Source: Flavobacterium sp. K5-23 (GTDB taxonomy: Bacteria; Bacteroidota; Bacteroidia; Flavobacteriales; Flavobacteriaceae). From it: a DNA stretch of 64,000 nt. The DNA is taken from contig NZ_CP056783.1 of the NCBI RefSeq assembly GCF_023278045.1, forward strand, positions 2,451,501 through 2,515,500, written 5' to 3'. The translations under genes were made by a program, and so were the position numbers. Numbering within the stretch: the stretch's first letter is position 1; every line of letters starts with the position of its first letter. Below are positions 34,955 through 45,840 of this stretch, one piece after another. Below the pieces are notes generated by a model that did not search any database, was not told the origin of the DNA, and saw only the letters and a list, made by a program, of their open reading frames with translations.

Positions 34955-36235
34955 TTAATAAGAACTGTTCATCTTTTCCTTTATATCATTTAAACAAAGG
35001 TTATTGATACTTCCTTCGTGGGTATGTTTGGTTTCTTTTGGAGATTCGAATGTTCCGTTTTCCAATTGTTCAGCAACCGCTTTGTAAGCATCTCTAAAAG
35101 GCATTCCTGCAACCACCATTTCGTTTAACGTATCCACAGTGAATAAATAGTCGTATTTTTTATCGGTCAAGATGTTGTCTTTTACTTTGATGTCTTTTAT
35201 TGAGAAAATAGCAATATCCAGACAGGCTTTTAAATTTTGTATTGCAGGAAATAATCCTTCTTTCAAAAGCTGTAAGTCTCTGTGGTATCCACTTGGTAGA
35301 TTATTAGTAATCAAAGTAATTTCGTACGGCAAGGCTTGAATTTTGTTGCATTTTCCACGGATTAACTCAAATACATCTGGGTTTTTCTTGTGAGGCATAA
35401 TACTCGATCCCGTTGTAAGATGGGCGGGCAAACTGATGAAATCAAAATTTTGACTCATATACAAACAAACATCCATAGAAAATTTCGATAGAGTAGCGGC
35501 AACACTGCTCATTGCAAAAGCCAAAGTTTTCTCTGATTTTCCACGGCTCATTTGGGCAGCAACGGCATTGTATTTTAGGGTTTCAAATCCCAATTCCTTT
35601 GTAGTAAATGTTCTGTCGATTGGAAATGAACTACCATATCCCGCAGCGGATCCCAACGGATTTTGGTCGACAATTTTCAAGGCGGCGTTCAACATGGTGA
35701 TATCGTCAATCAAACTCTCGGCATAAGCGGAAAACCACATTCCGAAAGAAGAAGGCATTGCGATTTGTAAATGTGTATAACCTGGAAGTAAAACATTTTG
35801 GTGTTTCTCTGCCGATTCCATCATCAAGTCAAAAAGCATTTTCACTTGCTCTTTCAGTTCGATAATTACATCTTTTAAGTACAAATGCACATCGACCAAC
35901 ACTTGGTCGTTACGGGAACGCGCGGTGTGGATTTTTTTTCCGGCATCACCGAGTTTTACCGTTAACAAATATTCGATTTTGGAATGTACGTCTTCAAAAG
36001 TATCTTCGATTATGAAGTTTCCGTTTTCGACATCTGCAATAATTTCATTTAATGCTAAAACTAAGGAATCTGTTTCAGTATCGGTCAGAAGTCCGATTTG
36101 TCCCAACATCTTAGCGTGAGCAATAGAACCCAAAGCATCATATTTAGCTAGGACTAAATCCAAATCCCTGTCGTTTCCAACGGTGAATTGTTCTATTTGT
36201 TTATCTGTAGGTATTCCTTTTTCCCAAAGTTTCAT
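34955..36235 (-). CDS. argH: Argininosuccinate lyase
   Basis: Last arginine step: splits argininosuccinate to arginine and fumarate. The 426 residues start at ATG 36235 (MKLWEKG), which matches family N-termini better than an upstream in-frame codon. Family marks are HTARSRNDQV, PGYTHLQIAMP with the catalytic His, and the signature SSIMPHKKNPD with the catalytic Ser. It is the last gene of the arginine/proline operon. A dispersed hairpin element separates it from argE. Confidence 0.96.
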   Translation of the reverse strand: MKLWEKGIPTDKQIEQFTVGNDRDLDLVLAKYDALGSIAHAKMLGQIGLLTDTETDSLVLALNEIIADVENGNFIIEDTFEDVHSKIEYLLTVKLGDAGKKIHTARSRNDQVLVDVHLYLKDVIIELKEQVKMLFDLMMESAEKHQNVLLPGYTHLQIAMPSSFGMWFSAYAESLIDDITMLNAALKIVDQNPLGSAAGYGSSFPIDRTFTTKELGFETLKYNAVAAQMSRGKSEKTLAFAMSSVAATLSKFSMDVCLYMSQNFDFISLPAHLTTGSSIMPHKKNPDVFELIRGKCNKIQALPYEITLITNNLPSGYHRDLQLLKEGLFPAIQNLKACLDIAIFSIKDIKVKDNILTDKKYDYLFTVDTLNEMVVAGMPFRDAYKAVAEQLENGTFESPKETKHTHEGSINNLCLNDIKEKMNSSY

Positions 36236-36309
36236 AGTTTTTATTTTTGTTTCGCAAAGATTCTCCAAGTTTACTCAAAGATTCACAAAGTTTTTATTTT
36301 TGATATTTC

Positions 36310-36388
36310 TAGCCTCGATAGAAGCGGTATCCTCTTGTGGCGGTGTTCGCCATAAGAGATATAGCGAATAGCGGGATTAGCTCCTAAT
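36310..36388. repeat. Dispersed intergenic element, copy 3 (best formed)
   Basis: It starts TAGCCTCGATAGAAGCGG and ends AGCGGGATTAGCTCCTAAT. Between them an interrupted hairpin (TATCCTCTT, GGCG / CGCC, AAGAG-ATA) spans 36328-36363. It lies inside the arg operon, between argE and argH. Confidence 0.6.
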
Positions 36389-36392
36389 TATT

Positions 36393-37463
36393 TTACTGCT
36401 TCAAGAAATCTTTTAATATTTTTATATACAACTGGATTCCTTCTTCGATTTCGTTTAAATAGATAAATTCGTCAGCAGAGTGTGACCGGAGTGTTTCTCC
36501 AGGTCCTAATTTCAATGATTTACAACTCAAAACAGATTGGTCCGAAAGGGTAGGAGAGCCATAAGTTGTCCTTCCCAACGCGATTCCTGCTTGAACTAAT
36601 CCGTGTGTTTCAGGTATTGAAGAGGCGCTTAAATTCATAGAACGCGGAGTTACCTCAGCGGTACAATTTTCTTTGACGATTTGTAAAATTGCTTGATTTG
36701 AATAACAATCGTTAACTCTAATATCGATAACCAAATCACAATCGGATGGTACCACATTGTGTTGTTTTCCCGCATTGATTTGGGTTACGGTCATTTTTAC
36801 AGGGCCTAATTGCTCCGATATTTTATCGAATCTATAATTTCTAAACCACTCCATCACTGGAATAGCGTTGTAAATTGAATTGTCTTCGTTTTGATGTGCA
36901 GCGTGACTTGGTGTCCCTTTTACTTTGACATCCAAAACCAATAATCCTTTTTCGGCTATGGCCAATTGCATTAAAGTAGGTTCACCCACAATGGCGCAAT
37001 CAAGTTCTGGTAAACTTTTAAGTACACTGTTTAAACCCTTTTTTCCGCTGCTTTCTTCCTCAGCTGAGGCAACAACAACGATGTTGTAAAGTAAAGTTTC
37101 ATTGGCATAAAAATAAACAAAAGTGGCCAAAAGAGAAACCAAACAACCTCCTGCATCATTGCTTCCCAAACCGAATAATTTACCGTCTTTAACGATTGCT
37201 TTGAAAGGGTCGTTAGTATAGGCTTGATTAGGCCTAACGGTATCATGGTGTGAATTCAGTAAAAGTGTTGGTTTGTTTTTGTCGAAAAACTTGTTGTATG
37301 CCCAAACATTATTGTTCTCTCTCTCAAAGGGAATCTCGTTATGTATAAACCATTTTTCGATTAAAGCCGCCGTTTGTTCTTCTTCGCTTGAAAAAGAAGG
37401 GGTTTCAATCAGATTTTTTAATAAAGTTATAGCTTCTTGAGTAAGTGTTTCTATGTTTTTCAT
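36393..37463 (-). CDS. argE: N-acyl-ornithine/citrulline deacylase (ArgE-type M20 peptidase)
   Basis: Zinc hydrolase of 356 residues that removes the acyl group in arginine synthesis. M20 marks are NSHHDTV (first zinc His and Asp), GLGSNDAGG (bridging Asp), SAEEESSGKKG (catalytic Glu pair) and VGEPT. Because the operon's carbamoyltransferase acts on acyl-ornithine, the natural substrate is probably N-acyl-citrulline. Whether the acyl group is acetyl or succinyl is open. It lies between argB and argH. Confidence 0.9.
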   Translation of the reverse strand: MKNIETLTQEAITLLKNLIETPSFSSEEEQTAALIEKWFIHNEIPFERENNNVWAYNKFFDKNKPTLLLNSHHDTVRPNQAYTNDPFKAIVKDGKLFGLGSNDAGGCLVSLLATFVYFYANETLLYNIVVVASAEEESSGKKGLNSVLKSLPELDCAIVGEPTLMQLAIAEKGLLVLDVKVKGTPSHAAHQNEDNSIYNAIPVMEWFRNYRFDKISEQLGPVKMTVTQINAGKQHNVVPSDCDLVIDIRVNDCYSNQAILQIVKENCTAEVTPRSMNLSASSIPETHGLVQAGIALGRTTYGSPTLSDQSVLSCKSLKLGPGETLRSHSADEFIYLNEIEEGIQLYIKILKDFLKQ

Positions 37464-37582: not shown

Positions 37583-38368
37583 TTATAATTCTATAGTTGT
37601 ACAAATAGCTTTTGCGTTTTGTAACATACGGTGATGACCAATTTTTATTTTTTGAACTCCTTTGGACAAACTATTGAAACAGTTATCCAGTTTTGGAATC
37701 ATTCCGGAATGAATTGCTTTTTCTTTTTTTAATTTGGCGTACAATTCGGGATTAATTTTTTCAATAACGGAAGAATCGTCTTCGGCATCGAATAATACAC
37801 CCGGTTTTTCGAAGCAATAATTCAAGGAAACTTTATATATTTCAGACAAAGCGATGGCTAATTCACTCGCAATAGTATCCGCATTTGTATTCAATAATTG
37901 CCCTTTTTTATTATGCGTAATTGCACAAAATACGGGAGTAATTCCGCTTGAAATCAAGGTTTCTAAAAGAGAAGTATTCACTTTTATAACATCGCCAACA
38001 TAACCATAATCTATTGTTGGGTGGTTTCTTTTTTCGGATAGGATTAAATTTCCGTCTGCACCTGAAAAACCCATTGCATTTGTGTCATTGGCTTGTAATT
38101 GTGCAACAATGTTTTTATTGATTTGCCCGGCATAAATCATCACAACAACATCAAGCATTGCAGCATCAGTAATGCGACGACCCTCAATCATTTGAGGAAC
38201 AAGACCAATGCTTTCCGCCATTTTAGTGGCTGATTTTCCACCGCCGTGAACGAGTATTTTATTCCCCTCAATTTTAGAGAAATCAGACAGGAACGATGAC
38301 AATTCGGCGGGGTCATCGATGATGTTTCCGCCAATTTTCACAATTGTTAAAGGAGTTTTACTGTCCAT
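37583..38368 (-). CDS. argB: N-acetylglutamate kinase
   Basis: Phosphorylates the gamma-carboxyl of N-acyl-glutamate with ATP. It has 261 residues, the short form. Marks: KIGGNIIDD, VHGGGKSATKMAE (glycine-rich phosphate loop), GRRITD, GFSGADGNLI and ADTIASELAIAL. There is no N-terminal helix of the kind associated with arginine-inhibited hexameric enzymes, so allosteric inhibition by arginine is unlikely; control may be at the RNA level. Its start overlaps the end of the carbamoyltransferase gene by 11 bases. Confidence 0.94.
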   Translation of the reverse strand: MDSKTPLTIVKIGGNIIDDPAELSSFLSDFSKIEGNKILVHGGGKSATKMAESIGLVPQMIEGRRITDAAMLDVVVMIYAGQINKNIVAQLQANDTNAMGFSGADGNLILSEKRNHPTIDYGYVGDVIKVNTSLLETLISSGITPVFCAITHNKKGQLLNTNADTIASELAIALSEIYKVSLNYCFEKPGVLFDAEDDSSVIEKINPELYAKLKKEKAIHSGMIPKLDNCFNSLSKGVQKIKIGHHRMLQNAKAICTTIEL

Positions 38369-39305
38369 TTTTTAATATTTTTTGCAAAACCAATTGGGCT
38401 GCATAAGTTCTGTTATTCGCTTGTTCAATTACGATTGAATTTTCGCTATCCAAAACTTCGTCAGATACAATTACATTACGTCTTACTGGAAGACAATGCA
38501 TGAATTTGGCATTATTAGTCAATTTCATTTTATCGGCTGTAACGGTCCAGTTTGGATCAGAATTGGTTATTTTACCGTAGTCATTGTAGTTACTCCAGTT
38601 TTTGGCATAAATAAAATCGGCGTTTTCAAAAGCTTTATCTTGATTGTATTCAATTTTTGAGTCTTTGGTAATTAAAGGATTTAGTTCATACCCTTCGGGA
38701 TGTGTAATGATAAATTCGGCATCTTGTAACTGCATCATTTCGATAAAAGAATTGACAACAGCCTGAGGTAAAGCTTTAGGGTGAGGAGCCCACGACAAGA
38801 CAATTTTAGGTCTGTGTGTTGTTTTATACTCTTCCATAGTTATTGCGTCAGCAAGAGCCTGTAAAGGGTGACCTGTTGCTCCTTCCATATTCACGATGGG
38901 AACCGTAGCGTATTTAAGGAAACCAGACATAACAATCTCAGCATTGTCTTTTTCTTTGTCTACTAATCCTGCAAAGGCTCTTACGGCAATAATATCACAA
39001 TACTGGGATATTACTTCGGCAGCTTCTTTGATGTGTTCTGAAGCACCAGAATTCATGATTGCTCCATCTTCAAACTCCAGAGTCCATCCTTCATTAGTAA
39101 AATTCATCACCATAACGTTCATACCTAAGTTTAAAGCTGCTTTTTGAGTGCTCAAACGAGTCCTTAAACTTGGATTAAAAAACAGCATTCCCAAGGTTTT
39201 GTTTTTACCCAGTTTTTTGTTTTTCAACGGGTTTTTTTTGATTTTTATTGCCGATTTCACCCATTTTGAGAGCGAATCGATGTCTTTTATTGAAGTGTAG
39301 TTCAT
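38358..39305 (-). CDS. N-acyl-ornithine carbamoyltransferase (acetyl or succinyl)
   Basis: Transfers a carbamoyl group to the side chain of an N-acylated ornithine, the variant pathway of Bacteroidota and Xanthomonas. 315 residues. The carbamoyl phosphate motif is FFNPSLRTRLSTQ, followed by HPLQALAD and MHCLPVRRN. The overall match is to Bacteroides fragilis succinylornithine carbamoyltransferase (WAPHPKALPQAV, ITHPEGYELNP, ADFIYAKNW). The loop residue reported to set acyl specificity (Pro for succinyl, Glu for acetyl) aligns with Ser89 in SGASEHI here, so the substrate cannot be called. It lies between proB and argB. Confidence 0.92.
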   Translation of the reverse strand: MNYTSIKDIDSLSKWVKSAIKIKKNPLKNKKLGKNKTLGMLFFNPSLRTRLSTQKAALNLGMNVMVMNFTNEGWTLEFEDGAIMNSGASEHIKEAAEVISQYCDIIAVRAFAGLVDKEKDNAEIVMSGFLKYATVPIVNMEGATGHPLQALADAITMEEYKTTHRPKIVLSWAPHPKALPQAVVNSFIEMMQLQDAEFIITHPEGYELNPLITKDSKIEYNQDKAFENADFIYAKNWSNYNDYGKITNSDPNWTVTADKMKLTNNAKFMHCLPVRRNVIVSDEVLDSENSIVIEQANNRTYAAQLVLQKILKNGQ

Positions 39306-39379: not shown

Positions 39380-40141
39380 TTATTTAATCTTCGTAAAAGG
39401 GATATTATTTTTTAATGCATCCAAAATAAAATTGTCTTTTAAACCATTGACAATCCAAGTCTCAATATTGGCTTCTTTTGCAATGGCGGAGGCTTCAATT
39501 TTTGATTTCATACCACCCGTTCCGTGGGATGATTTTGAATCGCCAATTTCTTTTTCCAATAGTTGTAAATCATTCACCAATGGTATCGTTTCCGGAATTT
39601 CATTGTGAATAGACTCTTTAGTGTAAATTGCATTAGTGTTTGTGGCGATAATTAATAGATCCACTTTCAATAAAACAGCGGTTAAAGCGGCTAATTTATC
39701 GTTGTCACCAAACTGTATTTCATCTGTTGCCACCGTATCATTTTCATTGATGATTGGAATGTAATTATTCTCAACCAATATATTTATGGTGTTTACAATA
39801 TTGACTTTGGACTGTTCTTTTTCAAAATCAGAATAAGACAATAAACATTGCGAGGTAAGCAATCCCAAATCGCTGAAGTTTTCATGGAAAATCCGCATTA
39901 AATGGGGCTGACCAATAGAAGCCAACGCTTGTTTGACTATAATTTCTTTGCCATTACTCTCCAGTTTTACAAATTGTTTTGCCGCTGCAATAGCTCCAGA
40001 ACTTACAATTATAAATTCATATTTATCGTTTAAAGCGGCTATTTGCATGCCTATATCTTCAATTTTTCCTCTGGAAATATGATTGGTTTCCTTGGTTAAA
40101 GTATTACTGCCTATTTTTAATAAAATTCTTTTTTTTGCCAT
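39380..40141 (-). CDS. proB: Glutamate 5-kinase, short form without PUA domain
   Basis: First proline step: phosphorylates glutamate. 253 residues contain the whole amino-acid-kinase domain (KIGSNTLT, VSSGAIAAAK, INENDTVATDEIQFGDNDKLAA, GTGGMKSKIEAS) and stop there. The PUA domain that brings the Escherichia coli enzyme to 367 residues is missing. It lies with proA inside the arginine operon, so proline and arginine synthesis from glutamate are transcribed together. Confidence 0.93.
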   Translation of the reverse strand: MAKKRILLKIGSNTLTKETNHISRGKIEDIGMQIAALNDKYEFIIVSSGAIAAAKQFVKLESNGKEIIVKQALASIGQPHLMRIFHENFSDLGLLTSQCLLSYSDFEKEQSKVNIVNTINILVENNYIPIINENDTVATDEIQFGDNDKLAALTAVLLKVDLLIIATNTNAIYTKESIHNEIPETIPLVNDLQLLEKEIGDSKSSHGTGGMKSKIEASAIAKEANIETWIVNGLKDNFILDALKNNIPFTKIK

Positions 40142-40154
40142 TATTTTTTAATTT

Positions 40155-40234
40155 AAAAATTGAAAGATTTAATAATTTAAAAATTTCGTTGTCCAAATCT
40201 TTTAATACTTCAATCTTTTAATCTTTCAATTTTT
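40155..40234. repeat. Inverted repeat between proA and proB
   Basis: Perfect 15-base arms AAAAATTGAAAGATT (40155-40169) and AATCTTTCAATTTTT (40220-40234); the right arm overlaps the proA stop codon. Similar words (CTTCAATCTTTTAAT) recur at 42617-42631 upstream of argD. Confidence 0.75.
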
Positions 40235-41429
40235 ATCGAATCTGTCCATCTCCGTAAATATACCATTTATTAGTGACTAGGTGTTGCAACCCAATTGGTC
40301 CTCTTTGGTGCAATTTGTCAGTGCTTATGGCGAGTTCTCCACCCAAACCAAACTGGCCTCCATCGGTAAACCGCGTTGAAGCGTTTTGATATACCGCAGC
40401 AGTATCAACATTATCCATGAACTCCTGGGCAATGGTATCATTTTTAGTGATTATAGAAGCCGAATGACCACCACAATACTTGTTTATTTTTTCTATCGCT
40501 TCCTGATCAGAATTGGTTGTTCCAATTACAATTTTATAATCTAAAAATTCTTCGTACCAAATCAAATCATTTTCGATACAAGCAACTTGCGTTGCATTTG
40601 AAACCGAATCGTCCCCCAAAACGTTTACATTGAACAATTGTAATTTGGATACTAATTGTTTTGCAAAAATTTCCCAGTTTGGAAGATTCGTATCAATTAA
40701 TACTTTATCTAAAGCATTGCATACTGATATGTTTGAAGTCTTTCCGTTGATGATGATAGCAAGTGCCTGATCTAAATCGGCTGCCTTATTTACATATACA
40801 AAGTTGTTTCCTCTGCCGCTCACAATTACCGGACATGTAGCATGTTTTTTTACAAAATTGATAAGATTTTCACCGCCTCTAGGGACAATTAAGTCCACTT
40901 TTTGTGTTGGTTTTTCCAAGAATTCTTGGGTTTCAGTCCTGTCATAATTCAGGTATTCAACCCAAGAAGTAGTCACTTCATTGTCTGTTAAGGCTTGGTG
41001 CCAAAGACTCACAATTTTTTGATTTGAAAGCAACGATTCTTTTCCGCCTTTCAATAGTATTCTGTTCCCCGACTTGAAGGCGATTCCTCCCGCCTCAACA
41101 GTCACGTCTGGGCGAGATTCATATATGATTAATATGGTGCCAAAAGCAGCTGTTTTATTACTTATTTTCAGTCCGTTATCGTGTGTGAAGTCAAAACGAA
41201 CTTTACCCAAAGGATCTTCTTGACTTGCTAATTGTTGCAAGGATAAGATCATCCCGTCAATTTTGGAGTCATCTACAACTAATCTTTTTTCCATAGCAAG
41301 GTCATCGCCTGAATAATTGGCAAGATCTTGTTGATTGATGCTTTTGACAGTAGCTCTTTCTTGTTCCAAAAGTGTTGCCATTCGGTTTAAAACAGCATTT
41401 CTTTTTTCTATGGATAAAATACGACTCAT
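40233..41429 (-). CDS. proA: Gamma-glutamyl phosphate reductase
   Basis: NADPH-dependent second proline step, giving glutamate semialdehyde. 398 residues, normal. The catalytic cysteine is in GKTSNISVCNALDKVL. Other marks are IIYESRPDVTVEAGGIAFKSGN, LIVPRGGENLI and TRFTDGGQFGLGGELAISTDKLHQRGPIGLQHLV at the C-terminus. argD ends three bases upstream, so the genes are tightly coupled; ArgD-type transaminases can act on related semialdehydes. Confidence 0.95.
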   Translation of the reverse strand: MSRILSIEKRNAVLNRMATLLEQERATVKSINQQDLANYSGDDLAMEKRLVVDDSKIDGMILSLQQLASQEDPLGKVRFDFTHDNGLKISNKTAAFGTILIIYESRPDVTVEAGGIAFKSGNRILLKGGKESLLSNQKIVSLWHQALTDNEVTTSWVEYLNYDRTETQEFLEKPTQKVDLIVPRGGENLINFVKKHATCPVIVSGRGNNFVYVNKAADLDQALAIIINGKTSNISVCNALDKVLIDTNLPNWEIFAKQLVSKLQLFNVNVLGDDSVSNATQVACIENDLIWYEEFLDYKIVIGTTNSDQEAIEKINKYCGGHSASIITKNDTIAQEFMDNVDTAAVYQNASTRFTDGGQFGLGGELAISTDKLHQRGPIGLQHLVTNKWYIYGDGQIR

Positions 41430-41431
41430 AA

Positions 41432-42598
41432 CTAAGATTTTAATTGATTCGCCAGTTCGCTAACGCTCAGCTCGGCTAAAGTTTCTTTTAAAGCCACAAT
41501 AAAGGTATCGATATCCTTTTTCTGTATGGTCAAAGGAGGAAGAATTCTTAGTAAGTTTTTATTATTTGCAGCACCAGTAAAGATGTGTTTGTCCATTATC
41601 ATTTTCTTTCTAAGTTCGCTTACATCAAAATCAAATTCGACACCTAACATTAGTCCTTTACCTTTTACTTTTTTTATTTGTGGGACTTGTTGGATTGCTT
41701 CCAAAAAATATTTAGAAACAGCATTTACATTGTCTTGCAATTTCAAACTTTCGAAAATATCCAAAACAGCTATTCCTGCTGTACATGCTAGATGGCTTCC
41801 GCCAAAAGTGGTTCCTAGGAGTCCATGACTAGCTTCGAATTTTGGGGAAATCAAAACGCCTCCAATTGGGAAACCATTTCCCATCCCTTTGGCAGTAGTG
41901 ACAATATCAGGATTGATACCGTGGTGTTGAAATGCGAAAAACTTCCCACTTCTTCCATAACCAGATTGCACTTCGTCTAATATAAGAACAGCTTGGTATT
42001 TATCGCACATTTTTTCCAAAGCTTGAAAGAATTCGGTTGTTCCTTCATCTAAACCTCCCACACCTTGAATTCCCTCAATGATGACACAGCAAACATCTCC
42101 TTTTTTTAATTCGGTTTCCACCAATTCAATTTGGTTTAAAGGCAAAAATGTGACGATTTGCTGCGCGTTTATTGGAGCAACAATTTTCTTGTTATCGGTT
42201 GCCGCAACGGCAGCTGAAGTTCTTCCGTGAAAAGAATTATCAAAAGATAGTATTCTAGATTTATTCGTGTGAAAAGAAGCTAGCTTTAAGGCATTTTCAT
42301 TGGCTTCAGCCCCTGAACTACACAAGAATAAACTGTAATCTTCTAGACCAGATGCCTTTCCTAGTTTTTGAGCCAATTCTGTTTGCAATGGATTCTGAAT
42401 CGCATTCGAATAAAAACTCAATTGGTCCAATTGATTTTTAATTTGTGCTACATATTCCGGTTGCGTGTGCCCGATGGAAATAACTCCATGGCCACCATAC
42501 AAATCTAGGTATTCAACTCCGTTTTCGTCAGTAATGGTGCAATCTAATGCTTTTACAGGAGTGATGTTATATAAAGGGTAAACGTCAAATAAGTTCAT
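41432..42598 (-). CDS. argD: Acyl-ornithine aminotransferase
   Basis: PLP-dependent class III transaminase of 388 residues that converts N-acyl-glutamate semialdehyde to N-acyl-ornithine. Marks: CSSGAEANENALKLA, SFDNSFHGRT, ILDEVQSGYGRSGKFF, and the PLP lysine in TTAKGMGNGFPIGG. The start MNLFDVYPLYNITPVKALDC is typical of Bacteroidota ArgD. Position between argC and proA suits a shared role with ornithine or acyl-ornithine. Confidence 0.93.
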   Translation of the reverse strand: MNLFDVYPLYNITPVKALDCTITDENGVEYLDLYGGHGVISIGHTQPEYVAQIKNQLDQLSFYSNAIQNPLQTELAQKLGKASGLEDYSLFLCSSGAEANENALKLASFHTNKSRILSFDNSFHGRTSAAVAATDNKKIVAPINAQQIVTFLPLNQIELVETELKKGDVCCVIIEGIQGVGGLDEGTTEFFQALEKMCDKYQAVLILDEVQSGYGRSGKFFAFQHHGINPDIVTTAKGMGNGFPIGGVLISPKFEASHGLLGTTFGGSHLACTAGIAVLDIFESLKLQDNVNAVSKYFLEAIQQVPQIKKVKGKGLMLGVEFDFDVSELRKKMIMDKHIFTGAANNKNLLRILPPLTIQKKDIDTFIVALKETLAELSVSELANQLKS

Positions 42599-42636: not shown

Positions 42637-43614
42637 TTAGAAACCAGATGGTTTCAAATGCAATCCTGTAGTTTCATCCAATCCAAACATTAAATTCATA
42701 TTTTGAATGGCTTGTCCAGAAGCACCTTTTACTAGGTTATCAATTACTGAGGTTATCAATAAACGGTTTCCTTTTTTCATTAAACTAATAATGCATTTGT
42801 TCGTTTGCACTACTTGTTTCATATTGATGTTAGTTGTAGTAACAGTTACAAATGGCTGGTCTTTATAGAACGCTTCGTATTTGGCCACTACATCTTCTAA
42901 ACTTTCCTCAACTGTTGTGTACAGTGTTGCGAAAATTCCTCTTGCAAAATCCCCTCTGTTGGGAACGAAAATTAATTCGTTTTTATAATCAATTTGTAAT
43001 TGATTGATACTTTGGTTTATCTCTCCTAAATGTTGGTGATCAAAAGCTTTGTAATGCGACATATTGTTTGCTCTCCAACTGAAATGTGTAGTTTCTGATG
43101 GGCTGACTCCAGCTCCCGTGCTTCCCGTTGTGGCATTAATATGAACATCATTATTCAATAATTCATTTGCTGCAAGCGGTAATAAAGCGAGTTGAATTGC
43201 TGTAGCAAAACAACCTGGATTAGCGATATATTTAGAGGTTTTTATACTGTTTTTATTCAGCTCAGGTAAGCCATAAACAAAAGATTTTCCTTGAAATTCT
43301 TTGTCTTTTGTCAATCTAAAGTCATTTCCTAAATCGATGATTTTTGTAGCATCAGAAAACTGATTTTGTTCTAAAAAAGAAATTGATTTCCCGTGACCTA
43401 AACACAAGAAAACAACATCAACGTCTGTATTCACTGTGTCGGTAAAATTCATTTCGATATCACCCATTAAATCATGGTGCGCTATAGAAAGTGGTTTTCC
43501 AGCATTGGTTGTGCTATAGACAAAATCAAGTTTTGCATTAGGATGAAACATCAATATTCTAATAAGTTCACCTGCGGTATATCCCGAACCTCCTATTATT
43601 CCAACATTAATCAT
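42637..43614 (-). CDS. argC: N-acetyl-gamma-glutamyl-phosphate reductase
   Basis: Reduces N-acyl-glutamyl phosphate to the semialdehyde with NADPH. 325 residues. Marks: IIGGSGYTAGELIRIL, FLCLGHGKS, the catalytic cysteine in KYIANPGCFATAIQLAL, and DHQHLGEINQ with the catalytic His region. The start codon overlaps the end of argG by eight bases, indicating translational coupling. Confidence 0.95.
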   Translation of the reverse strand: MINVGIIGGSGYTAGELIRILMFHPNAKLDFVYSTTNAGKPLSIAHHDLMGDIEMNFTDTVNTDVDVVFLCLGHGKSISFLEQNQFSDATKIIDLGNDFRLTKDKEFQGKSFVYGLPELNKNSIKTSKYIANPGCFATAIQLALLPLAANELLNNDVHINATTGSTGAGVSPSETTHFSWRANNMSHYKAFDHQHLGEINQSINQLQIDYKNELIFVPNRGDFARGIFATLYTTVEESLEDVVAKYEAFYKDQPFVTVTTTNINMKQVVQTNKCIISLMKKGNRLLITSVIDNLVKGASGQAIQNMNLMFGLDETTGLHLKPSGF

Positions 43615-44800
43615 AAGTCAAGTCGTTTACAGATGAAAATATATTTTGAGCGTTTCCTAAAATTTTGATGAATCCTTTAGCATCATCTGACGTCCAAGCG
43701 TTGTTCATTTCTCCATACTGACCAAAACCTGTATTCATCAAATCATTATCTGATTCAATTCCGTCCAATGAGAAATGATATGGTTTTAAGGATACAGTTA
43801 CAGTTCCGTTTACTGTTTTCTGGGTGTCTTCAAGGAAAGCCTCGATGTTTCTCATTACAGGATCAAGGAATTGTCCTTCGTGAAATAACATTCCGTACCA
43901 GTTTCCTAGTTGTTCTTTCCAGTATTGTTGCCATTTACCAAGGGTATGTTTCTCCAATAAATGGTGTGCTTTGATAATAATTAATGGAGCAGCAGCTTCA
44001 AACCCAACTCTCCCTTTAATTCCGATTATTGTATCACCCACATGCGTATCTCTACCTATAGCGTATGCATTAGCTAATTTTTCAAGGATAACAATGTTTT
44101 TTACCGGAGCGTTTTTAGTTCCGTTAATACCAACTAATTCCCCTTTTTCAAATTGTAAAGTCACTTTTTCTTCACCCTCTTTTTGCAATTGAGAAGGGTA
44201 AGCTTCACTAGGTAAAGCTTGATGAGAAGTTAAGGTTTCTTTACCACCAACACTAGTTCCCCAAAGTCCTTTATTGATTGAATATTGTGCTTTTTCCCAA
44301 GAATAATGCACACCGTTTTTTGACAAATAATCCACTTCTTCTTGTCTTGATAATTTCAAGTCTCTGATAGGAGTTATTATTTCAATTTCGGGAGCTATGG
44401 TTTGGAAAATTAAATCAAAACGGATCTGGTCATTTCCTGCGCCAGTACTTCCGTGAGCGATAGCTTCTGCACCAACAGATTTGGCGTATTTTATAGCTTC
44501 AATAGCTTGAAAAACTCTTTCTGCACTTACTGACAGTGGATAGGTGTTGTTTTTTAGAACATTACCATAAATTAAGTATTTAATAGCTTTGTCATAGTAT
44601 TTATCTACGATAGTAAGGTTTGCGTGTTTTGCACTACCTAATTCATAAGCTCTTTCTTCAATAGCAGTTAACTCTTCATCATCAAATCCACCTGTATTGA
44701 TTAATACAGTATGAACCTCATATCCTTTTTCGTTTTTTAAATATTTTAGACAGTATGAAGTGTCTAAACCTCCACTATATGCTAATACAACTTTTTTCAT
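43607..44800 (-). CDS. argG: Argininosuccinate synthase
   Basis: Joins citrulline and aspartate using ATP. 397 residues. The PP-loop is LAYSGGLDTSYC at the N-terminus; IAHGSTGAGNDQIRFD and KETLTSHQALPSEAYP follow. It is the second gene of the operon, 61 bases after the GNAT gene. Placing this late-step enzyme early in the operon is common in this group. Confidence 0.96.
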   Translation of the reverse strand: MKKVVLAYSGGLDTSYCLKYLKNEKGYEVHTVLINTGGFDDEELTAIEERAYELGSAKHANLTIVDKYYDKAIKYLIYGNVLKNNTYPLSVSAERVFQAIEAIKYAKSVGAEAIAHGSTGAGNDQIRFDLIFQTIAPEIEIITPIRDLKLSRQEEVDYLSKNGVHYSWEKAQYSINKGLWGTSVGGKETLTSHQALPSEAYPSQLQKEGEEKVTLQFEKGELVGINGTKNAPVKNIVILEKLANAYAIGRDTHVGDTIIGIKGRVGFEAAAPLIIIKAHHLLEKHTLGKWQQYWKEQLGNWYGMLFHEGQFLDPVMRNIEAFLEDTQKTVNGTVTVSLKPYHFSLDGIESDNDLMNTGFGQYGEMNNAWTSDDAKGFIKILGNAQNIFSSVNDLTYD

Positions 44801-44861: not shown

Positions 44862-45482
44862 TTATTTGTCCTCTAAGAAAAGAGCTTGTTTTATCTTTTT
44901 TAACCTATTCCATATCCGGACATTAAATGGATGTTTTGGCGGGATTTTAAGTTTTTCTTTTGGATCGTAAAGCATTCCTGTACACAAGCACATTTTATTG
45001 TCTTTGCTTTTTAGAATTTCGTAATTAGTACATGTTTGACATCCTTTCCAAAAGCTTGGATCTGTTGTCAATTCAGAAAAAGGTACAGGTTTATATCCTA
45101 AATCCGAATTAATTTTCATTACTGCTAAACCTGTAGTAATTCCAAATACTTTTGCATCAGGATATTTTTCTAATGAATACTCAAACACTTTAGATTTAAT
45201 TTGTTTTGCTAAGCCTAAGTTTCTGTAATCAGGATGTACGATAAGACCTGAATGGGCCACATACTTTCCGTGCTCCCAGCTTTCGATATAACAAAAACCT
45301 GCAAATTTTCCGTTGTCTAATGCAATTACTGCATCCTTGTTTTCCATCTTTTTTTGGATGTATTCAGGAGTTCTTTTTGCAATTCCAGTTCCTCTCAATA
45401 GAGCAGATTCTTCAATAGTATCACATACTATTTGCGAATATTTAAAATGCTCTTCTTGTGCTATAATTATTGAGATATTCAT
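44862..45482 (-). CDS. GNAT acetyltransferase, candidate acyl-glutamate synthase of the arginine pathway
   Basis: A 206-residue protein starting at ATG 45482 (MNISIIIAQEEHF). The GNAT core includes HSGLIVHPDYRNLGLAKQIKSKVF (acetyl-CoA loop) and GITTGLAVMKINSDLGY. The C-terminal part carries Cys148, Cys151, Cys165 and Cys167 (GCQTC and MCLC), a possible metal site not seen in ordinary GNATs. As first gene of the operon, and with no ArgA or ArgJ elsewhere in it, it is the best candidate for the missing first step, N-acylation of glutamate. That role is inferred from position, not from catalytic residues. Confidence 0.8.
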   Translation of the reverse strand: MNISIIIAQEEHFKYSQIVCDTIEESALLRGTGIAKRTPEYIQKKMENKDAVIALDNGKFAGFCYIESWEHGKYVAHSGLIVHPDYRNLGLAKQIKSKVFEYSLEKYPDAKVFGITTGLAVMKINSDLGYKPVPFSELTTDPSFWKGCQTCTNYEILKSKDNKMCLCTGMLYDPKEKLKIPPKHPFNVRIWNRLKKIKQALFLEDK

Positions 45483-45815
45483 TTTAAGATATAAATAATT
45501 GGTTAAAAAATGAGGTGTAAAGTTTATACCAAAAATCAAAGTTATTGATTTTTAGTTTATTAATTGCTATATAAGACATTGTTAAACAAGTTGTTGAGTT
45601 TAAAAATAAAAAATGGTTACAAGTAGATTTTGGATATAATAATCCAATAGTAAATAATTGAAATTTCAAAATAGAATATAGAAAAAATGAATAAAAATAG
45701 AACGAAACAGTCGTTGGGTACTATATAGATAGTATCCGTACTTCGGGAGAAGCCGTAGGTCTGTTTATCCGTGAGATAGAAGTTATATTTACACTTGTAT
45801 TATTCATTGGTACAA
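45483..45815 (-). promoter_or_regulatory. Long leader of the arginine/proline operon, possible attenuator
   Basis: The predicted mRNA leader is about 325 bases. After the small ORF come a hairpin spanning its stop codon (minus strand GG-A-TACTAT-CTAT-ATAGTA-CC, about 45716-45738), then AACGA-CTGTT-TCGTT (about 45699-45713) followed by the T-rich tract CTATTTTTATTCATTTTTT. Further down are TTGGAT/ATCCAA and AAAAATCA/TGATTTTT stems. This layout would suit transcription attenuation; no known riboswitch class is recognised. Confidence 0.4.
45721..45807 (-). CDS. 28-codon leader peptide with three arginine codons
   Basis: An ATG at 45807 opens a frame of 28 codons ending with TAG at 45721-45723. 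It starts MNNTSVNITS, contains SISRINRPTASPEVR and ends ILSI. Arginines are residues 13, 16 and 24, encoded CGG, AGA, CGG. The ATG lies five bases after a perfect -7 box, so translation would be leaderless. The arginine operon's first gene starts 238 bases further on with nothing between. Comparison with other flavobacteria would decide whether it is a conserved sensing peptide. Confidence 0.5.
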   Translation of the reverse strand: MNNTSVNITSISRINRPTASPEVRILSI

Positions 45816-45840
45816 ATGTACACTAATTTTTGATTCACAA
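45813..45840 (-). promoter_or_regulatory. Promoter of the arginine/proline operon
   Basis: On the minus strand, TTG (45838-45840), a 17-base spacer and TACATTTG (45813-45820), both elements matching the flavobacterial consensus. It follows the terminator of the preceding lipoprotein gene (45901-45936) and is the only good promoter I see before the operon. Confidence 0.65.

Follow-up and report, generated by a model that had tools for sequence, protein, structure and literature searches.

The his, trp, and leu attenuators of Proteobacteria combine an upstream open reading frame (ORF), which carries codons for the product of the operon, with overlapping RNA hairpins. ArgR is a DNA-binding repressor. 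Arginine can also be sensed by a leader ORF, as the Arg codons of Salmonella orf34, which precedes speF, respond to arginine by pausing (PMC6386406). In Flavobacterium psychrophilum, clues to leader-peptide attenuation before amino-acid operons have been reported, with 5' elements of pheA and hisG named (PMC9723704), and leader-like short ORFs are mentioned for Bacteroides (PMC7366714). The accessible main text of PMC9723704 names no arginine leader, and its sole mention of arginine concerns cyanophycin. No account of an arginine leader or of ArgR in Bacteroidota was found in the main texts of the open-access literature.

The window analyzed here, a stretch of 64,000 nucleotides from Flavobacterium sp. 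K5-23, contains a candidate for such a leader on its minus strand. A Bacteroidota-type promoter (45813..45840) consists of a -33 TTG at 45840-45838, a 17-nt spacer, and the -7 box TACATTTG at 45820-45813; the consensus of such promoters is TAnnTTTG (PMC9723704). By direct reading, the bases TACCA lie between the -7 box and an ATG at 45807, which opens a leaderless ORF of 28 codons (45721..45807), MNNTSVNITSISRINRPTASPEVRILSI followed by a stop codon. Its Arg codons are codon 13 (CGG, 45769..45771), codon 16 (AGA, 45760..45762), and codon 24 (CGG, 45736..45738). Codon 24 sits at the junction of two hairpins, SL1 (GCUUC-UCCC-GAAGU, 45740..45753), which lies within the ORF at codons 19-23, and SL2 (45716..45737), which extends across the stop codon. 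The single-sequence fold adds a small hairpin, AACGA/UCGUU (45701..45715), with U-rich sequence next to it, and the leader alignment defines a conserved U-rich tract, UAUUUUUAUUCAUUUUUUCU (45680..45699), of which 45694-45686 can pair with the start of the ORF at 45808-45800. The ORF and the GNAT acetyltransferase ATG at 45482 are separated by 238 nt. An earlier sequence-only reading had described the TTG-N17-TACATTTG promoter, the ATG five bases beyond it, the 28-codon ORF with Arg codons CGG, AGA, and CGG, the hairpin at the stop codon, and about 240 bases leading to a ten-gene arginine/proline operon; this observation is confirmed. The classical local terminator that a second small hairpin with U-rich sequence would suggest was not found past that hairpin, and no intrinsic terminator was found in the window leader. 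The fold of the window leader barely beats shuffled sequences (single-sequence fold, z -1.7, 10/200), and there was no Rfam match to it at the gathering threshold.

Ten genes on the minus strand follow. The first encodes the GNAT acetyltransferase (44862..45482), which has no NCBIfam match. NCBIfam matches identify argC (42637..43614), proA (40233..41429), proB (39380..40141), an N-acetylornithine carbamoyltransferase type (38358..39305), argB (37583..38368; its product, of 261 aa, is the acetylglutamate kinase that the sequence-only reading considered a short form), and argH (34955..36268). Matches below the curated cut-offs identify argG (43607..44800, argG models), an argD-type aminotransferase (41432..42598), and an ArgE/DapE-type deacylase (36393..37463). 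A Flavo-1 RNA (RF01705, 65.6 bits) was observed at 36307-36382 on the plus strand, in the interval that separates argH from the ArgE/DapE-type gene and opposite to the operon strand. Loci of relatives were collected by scanning GTDB genomes with the GNAT protein and taking the best 80 of 147; the closest GNAT relatives in named Flavobacterium are about 90% identical. The argG gene lies directly 3' of GNAT in 79 of these best 80 loci, 76 by the threshold used and three (L077-L079) in which GNAT ends 15 nt earlier than the default, and in the 80th (L040) the contig stops 51 nt past GNAT.

It is likely that the ORF at 45807-45721 is an arginine-sensing leader peptide, and that stalling at its Arg codons lifts a premature termination of transcription. 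The leaderless ORF would be translated and charged tRNA-Arg would be gauged through the rare CGG codons 13 and 24. When arginine is plentiful, ribosomes would clear the ORF and the leader RNA would fold into SL1, into SL2 at the stop codon, and probably also into a long-range stem that joins the start of the ORF to the U-rich tract; RNA polymerase would then be halted in or after this tract, before the GNAT-argG operon. When arginine is short, ribosomes would stall at the CGG codons and queue on the leaderless start, keeping the 5' part of the ORF unfolded, so that the operon would be transcribed. Translation of the ORF, ribosome stalling, and the direction of control are steps that we infer, and the final step, the long-range stem with its U-tract or else Rho, is the least certain. 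The interpretation offered by the sequence-only reading, an arginine-sensing leader peptide, is largely supported by the comparisons that follow.

Class A comprises 71 leaders (the window, L002-L070, and L083), from records that are mostly named Flavobacterium, with some uncultured Flavobacteriaceae and one metagenome bin labelled Klebsiella (L021). The proposed alignment of the upstream regions bore out a conserved ORF with conserved Arg codons: 70 of the 71 carry an intact ORF that fits M.....(H/N)I..SR......SPEVR.L, the single exception being a frameshift in L046, and codons 13 and 24 are each CGG in 69/70. The remaining leader, that of F. branchiophilum (L039), has Leu at codon 13, Arg (AGG) at codon 14, and AGG at codon 24. 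In another leader, L301, codon 13 is CGC. The distance from the start to codon 24 is 24 codons in 67/70 leaders. Codon 16, by comparison, encodes Arg in only 19/67, the conserved Arg codons being 13 and 24. CGG accounts for 139/168 Arg codons in the leaders versus 4/87 in twelve genes of the window. A leaderless ORF after a Bacteroidota-type -7 box is present in 69/71 class A leaders versus a shuffle mean of 9.3, and one with at least two Arg codons in 69/71 versus a mean of 1.6 in dinucleotide shuffles, where the leader counts come from related species rather than independent events and the shuffles leave that relatedness in place. The Arg codons are kept while most other codons change, indicating that the ORF is probably a sensor of arginine shortage. 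The nucleotides flanking the CGG codons are themselves conserved, and an RNA-level reason for this conservation is therefore not fully separable from a codon-level one. As in amino-acid attenuators, codons for the amino acid of the operon are found in a short upstream ORF, and these control codons are conserved while the remaining peptide varies.

A covariance model of the class A leader, searched against 179 Flavobacterium genomes, matched 76 of them once each, and all 76 matches sit 190-227 nt upstream of GNAT. The same peptide before non-arginine operons, which the sequence-only reading considered an argument for another signal, was not seen at the sensitivity of this model, and the leader is linked to the argG operon alone. 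GNAT is present in 100/179 genomes, of which 83 have a complete copy of the close type, and the remaining 79 have neither GNAT nor a leader match. Seven of the 83 had no class A match. Six of these, together with two genomes with weak matches, were read directly, and in the seventh the contig ends. Seven of the eight leaders thus read are full ORFs with changed sequence, such as MNKTELHITNMSRTKNQATSRMVRSI and MNKNIFNTKLPKGQAPIRLNYRIIRLV, with peptides that end, for example, in SRMVRSI, LRVVRS, or SRSERSTF before the stop codon; the eighth (L305) is a shorter ORF of 17 codons. Among the seven, 20/22 Arg codons are CGG, at positions 13, 21, and 24 in five leaders and 18, 22, and 25 in two. Reading was extended to eleven Flavobacterium genomes whose GNAT is of a more distant type, and five of these had no convincing leader. 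Another type of leader, ending in SRxxRxRA before the stop codon and using CGG and CGC as Arg codons, was observed in L313-L317, and a similar one, ending in LRTLRIRG, in L312.

The leader RNA of class A is structured. RNAalifold, applied to 54 non-redundant leaders, predicted SL1 (UACUUC/GAAGUA), within the ORF and ending just 5' of codon 24, and SL2 (UACUAU/AUAGUA), which covers the stop codon. When covariation was scanned across all 329 columns of the leader, SL2 ranked first and SL1 third; a four-pair GAAA/TTTT match between distant columns, ranked second, was taken as background. With SL1 and SL2 imposed as a fixed structure on 36 leaders, pairing holds in 94.4% of cells, and neither any of 500 shuffles nor the slid partners reached the covariation score of 0.209. 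The expectation of covarying stems in relatives was thus realized by two hairpins, one of which is the predicted hairpin at the stop codon (45737-45716), and conserved hairpins that overlap an ORF and its stop codon are a further property of amino-acid attenuators. The small hairpin at 45701-45715 and the U-rich sequence next to it are seen in the fold of the window, but the covariation scan revealed no covarying helix for this hairpin in class A relatives.

RNAalifold also predicted the long-range stem, in which AUGAAUA at the ORF start pairs with UAUUCAU in the U-rich tract. At least five of its pairs occur in the minimum-energy fold of 76/77 leaders, and it is found in the fold of the window as well. 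It ranked sixth in the covariation scan. Own partners were not significantly better than swapped ones for three choices of the stem (z +1.1, -0.8, and -0.7) or in a further test of this kind (z -1.5, 361/5000). Mismatches are uncompensated in a minority of class A leaders, and the U-richness of these leaders is slightly above that of shuffles. For class A, the long-range stem between the ORF start and the U-tract is therefore suggestive only.

Arg-rich leaders of other kinds precede GNAT in other Flavobacteriaceae, as found at 119 loci that represent 108 of 128 further GNAT genomes and 11 named loci. Leaderless ORFs with four or more Arg codons occur at 71/119 (shuffle mean 0.6), and stretches of eight codons that include four or more Arg codons at 92/119 (shuffle mean 8.0). 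The reverse complement was rejected as a control for such Arg runs, since CGN runs give Arg codons in the opposite strand as well. In class C, a single leaderless ORF ending in RRRRP or RRRP before the stop codon lies roughly 160-230 nt upstream of GNAT. In class B, a leaderless ORF1, for example MKNLKNKIRCTTPGLPVRNRRRF and a stop codon, lies about 300 nt upstream and is followed by a second Arg frame, such as MRRRFPRRP, which in part of the loci has no evident start codon. The endings of Arg-rich leaderless peptides in other Flavobacteriaceae also include PVRNRRRF, and two such peptides sometimes stand in series. At several class B loci, including L117, L120, and L183, two Arg frames occur in series, each of a type that is found alone in other genera. 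Serial Arg frames in class B could possibly act as a double sensor.

For class B, 45 loci were picked by eye and ORF1 was found in 42. In 21 dissimilar leaders, an early segment of ORF1 pairs with the segment immediately 5' of the U-tract, in the same layout as the weaker class A stem in the window. Own partners scored -13.3 versus -9.9 for permuted ones (z -5.5, 0/5000 permutations), and 19/21 leaders were better than the mean of their row. A hairpin over the ORF1 stop codon is weak (z -2.0, 147/5000). The stem between ORF1 and the U-tract is the best evidence for a terminator-like switch in class B.

Classes B and C share a second RNA element, in which an RRP-stop hairpin, CGYCGCCC-GUAA-GGGUG, is followed by a spacer and a hairpin with an AGGUGnGUCC loop, mostly of 5-7 pairs. 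The loop is GGUGAGUCC in 74 of 107 pattern-matching loci, GGUG(U/C)GUCC in 29, and a GCCC variant in 4, a constancy that is partly due to selection, as AGGUGnGUCC was also the search pattern for these loci. The arms of this hairpin occur in 57 versions among 97. The strict loop pattern is found in 107 of the 119 loci and a lenient form of it in 109; a covariance model of the element still matches, at lower scores, seven of the ten loci that fit neither form. Covariation in the element was scored on an alignment of 56 rows, with a score that 0/500 shuffles reach; two of five covariation measures are not clear on this alignment (reached by 53 and 33 of 500 shuffles), and with the partner shifted by +1 the value is 0.170 versus 0.199, as some of the rows have the stem out of register by one base. 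An example from this alignment is L118:100-166 (minus), a covarying hairpin with a nearly constant loop. The loop resembles the complement of the 3' end of 16S rRNA (GGAUCACCU). A conceivable alternative pairing would join the SL1 arm CGCC to the GGUG loop of the second element, two segments that hardly vary.

A covariance model of the second element matched 122/199 Flavobacteriaceae genomes. Of 124 matches, 120 lie at most 239 nt upstream of GNAT, and 8/128 GNAT genomes have no match; of the other four matches, two are weak (E 0.004). The other two are those in L296 and L297, where the element was observed before a different GNAT-like ORF (194-197 aa), in genomes without the usual GNAT. In a sample of the phylum, 12/296 genomes have the element, all of them Flavobacteriaceae, and it was not found in the genome of the window or in 17 further Flavobacterium listed in that sample. 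Rfam searches of the loci of 20 relatives, with E up to 1, gave three miRNA-type matches below the gathering threshold, on one flank and far from the leader.

These results bear on how the arginine signal would be converted into expression. The same Arg-codon sensor could act within the 238 untranslated bases, through Rho-dependent termination or through decay of the RNA. A ribosome at codon 24 or the stop codon would then shield an entry site that a released ribosome exposes. This form of the output is possible, if somewhat unlikely for the window. It would suit a leader without an intrinsic terminator, and it has a precedent in Salmonella orf34, an Arg-codon leader that works partly via Rho and RNase G (PMC6386406). 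It would also suit the second element, as at least four T in a row within 12 nt after the last hairpin occur in only 13/107 loci, making intrinsic termination unlikely as a common output; the output of the second element is probably not intrinsic termination. Against it stands the covarying stem of class B, which lies directly before the U-tract and resembles intrinsic termination. The output step seems to differ between the modules, and might be intrinsic termination with a long-range stem in class B, and perhaps class A, and Rho or another mechanism for the second element.

A structured regulatory RNA for arginine, such as a riboswitch or a protein binding site, in which the ORF is incidental or only a part of the fold, is improbable. 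Two covarying hairpins and the conserved nucleotides around the Arg codons are what such an RNA would display, and so is the nearly constant AGGUGnGUCC loop of other genera, with its 57 distinct arm pairs among 97. The reading frame, nevertheless, is open in all class A leaders except L046, and it is leaderless in 69/71. Arg is furthermore retained through codon changes, to AGG and CGC, and in other genera the leaders have a different sequence and a different fold, yet share the Arg codons.

It is very improbable that the ORF encodes a small functional protein and comes first in the operon only by chance. The ORF is conserved, and its C-terminal SPEVR is conserved in most species, but this segment coincides with SL1, and the diverged leaders retain little except Arg. 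The substitution pattern is also near neutral: dN/dS is 0.78 in the true frame against 0.88 and 0.99 in the two others, and over codons 2-16 the true frame has 0.98 and the wrong frames 0.70 and 0.83. A dN/dS below 1, which had been proposed as a test of coding, was dropped as proof of a peptide, since the wrong frames are lower at codons 2-16. Near-free change of the peptide combined with fixed Arg codons may instead fit a codon-sensing leader, and is no independent proof of translation. Least credible of all is an ordinary promoter followed by a chance ORF, for although short ORFs are common, leaderless ORFs with at least two Arg codons occur in 69/71 leaders against 1.6 in shuffles, and the model found no match away from GNAT in 179 genomes.

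The distribution of ArgR provides a second line of comparison. Searches with PF01316 (ArgR) gave one borderline match, at 26.9 bits, in 199 Flavobacteriaceae genomes and no match in the genome of the window, so that no argR was found there as the basis of an ArgR regulon. In a control set that included Bacteroides, 9/14 genomes were positive, 8 of them over the cut-off. Among 198 Bacteroidia genomes there were 12 PF01316 matches, nine over the cut-off including the borderline Flavobacteriaceae genome. Of the eight Bacteroidia genomes with a clear ArgR, five have a GNAT match and three do not, and in each of the five with GNAT the two matches share a strand, with ArgR ending 296-350 nt ahead of GNAT; in the one that was read, a 156-aa argR lies directly upstream of GNAT. 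The operon is thus headed by argR in these Bacteroidia and by Arg-rich leaders in the Flavobacteriaceae described above.

Leaders were also sought in 59 Bacteroidia genomes of other families that have GNAT and no clear ArgR. A leaderless ORF with at least three Arg codons is present in 8/59 (shuffle mean 0.8), and four or more Arg codons fall within eight in 23/59 (shuffle mean 7.8). Five of the eight ORFs, before GNAT in L239, L242, L252, L255, and L260 and thus outside Flavobacteriaceae, are of one shared leaderless type, MFL..KHI.....SF.R..RPS.RP. Upstream of argR itself, 3/8 loci show four or more Arg codons within eight in some open frame, so that this small set is no clean negative control, and 3/8 have a short leaderless ORF carrying a few Arg codons. 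The best reading of this distribution is that Arg-codon ribosome stalling took over from ArgR, a replacement that is well supported for Flavobacteriaceae and partial or unproven beyond.

A wider scenario may tentatively be drawn from these comparisons. Flavobacteriaceae may have given up ArgR for Arg leader peptides that are read by the ribosome, in two interchangeable modules that are sometimes placed in series. One of these modules would be a new RNA element, in which an Arg-run-Pro-stop sequence over a GUAA-type hairpin is combined with the AGGUGnGUCC loop, and which would need no intrinsic terminator; it might instead contact the ribosome or a dedicated factor. The leaders offer a candidate answer to how arginine is sensed in a family with ArgR in at most 1/199 genomes. 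If this answer is correct, leaderless leader peptides can act as sensors. The second element is in itself a structured RNA of 122/199 genomes, with no Rfam match and a nearly constant loop. The contrast between the argR-headed and leader-headed versions of the operon would furthermore show cleanly how an RNA/ribosome regulator has taken the place of a protein regulator.

Set beside the his, trp, and leu attenuators, the leader of the window has the same short upstream ORF with codons for the product and the same overlapping hairpins, but it is leaderless at its expected 5' end, its proposed signal is arginine, no local terminator was found in it, and it belongs to Bacteroidota. With ArgR-controlled operons it shares the head of the operon, as argR lies directly before GNAT in five sampled Bacteroidia, whereas no argR was found in the genome of the window. 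Salmonella orf34 is similar in having rare Arg codons in a leader ORF that controls downstream transcription and decay; it differs in its target, an ornithine decarboxylase, in its DUF2618 peptide with adjacent Arg codons (HIRRT), in the use of Rho and RNase G, and in its Shine-Dalgarno start (PMC6386406). The peptide of the window is thus not a SpeFL, as it has no HIRRT core and precedes GNAT-argG rather than speF. In Staphylococcus aureus rbfL, rare Arg codons in a leader ORF likewise sense arginine shortage, but there pausing blocks the ribosome site of the gene for a biofilm regulator and starvation lowers expression, in another phylum (PMC13009471). The elements reported for F. psychrophilum come from the same genus as the leader of the window, and they too point to leader-peptide attenuation before amino-acid operons (PMC9723704).
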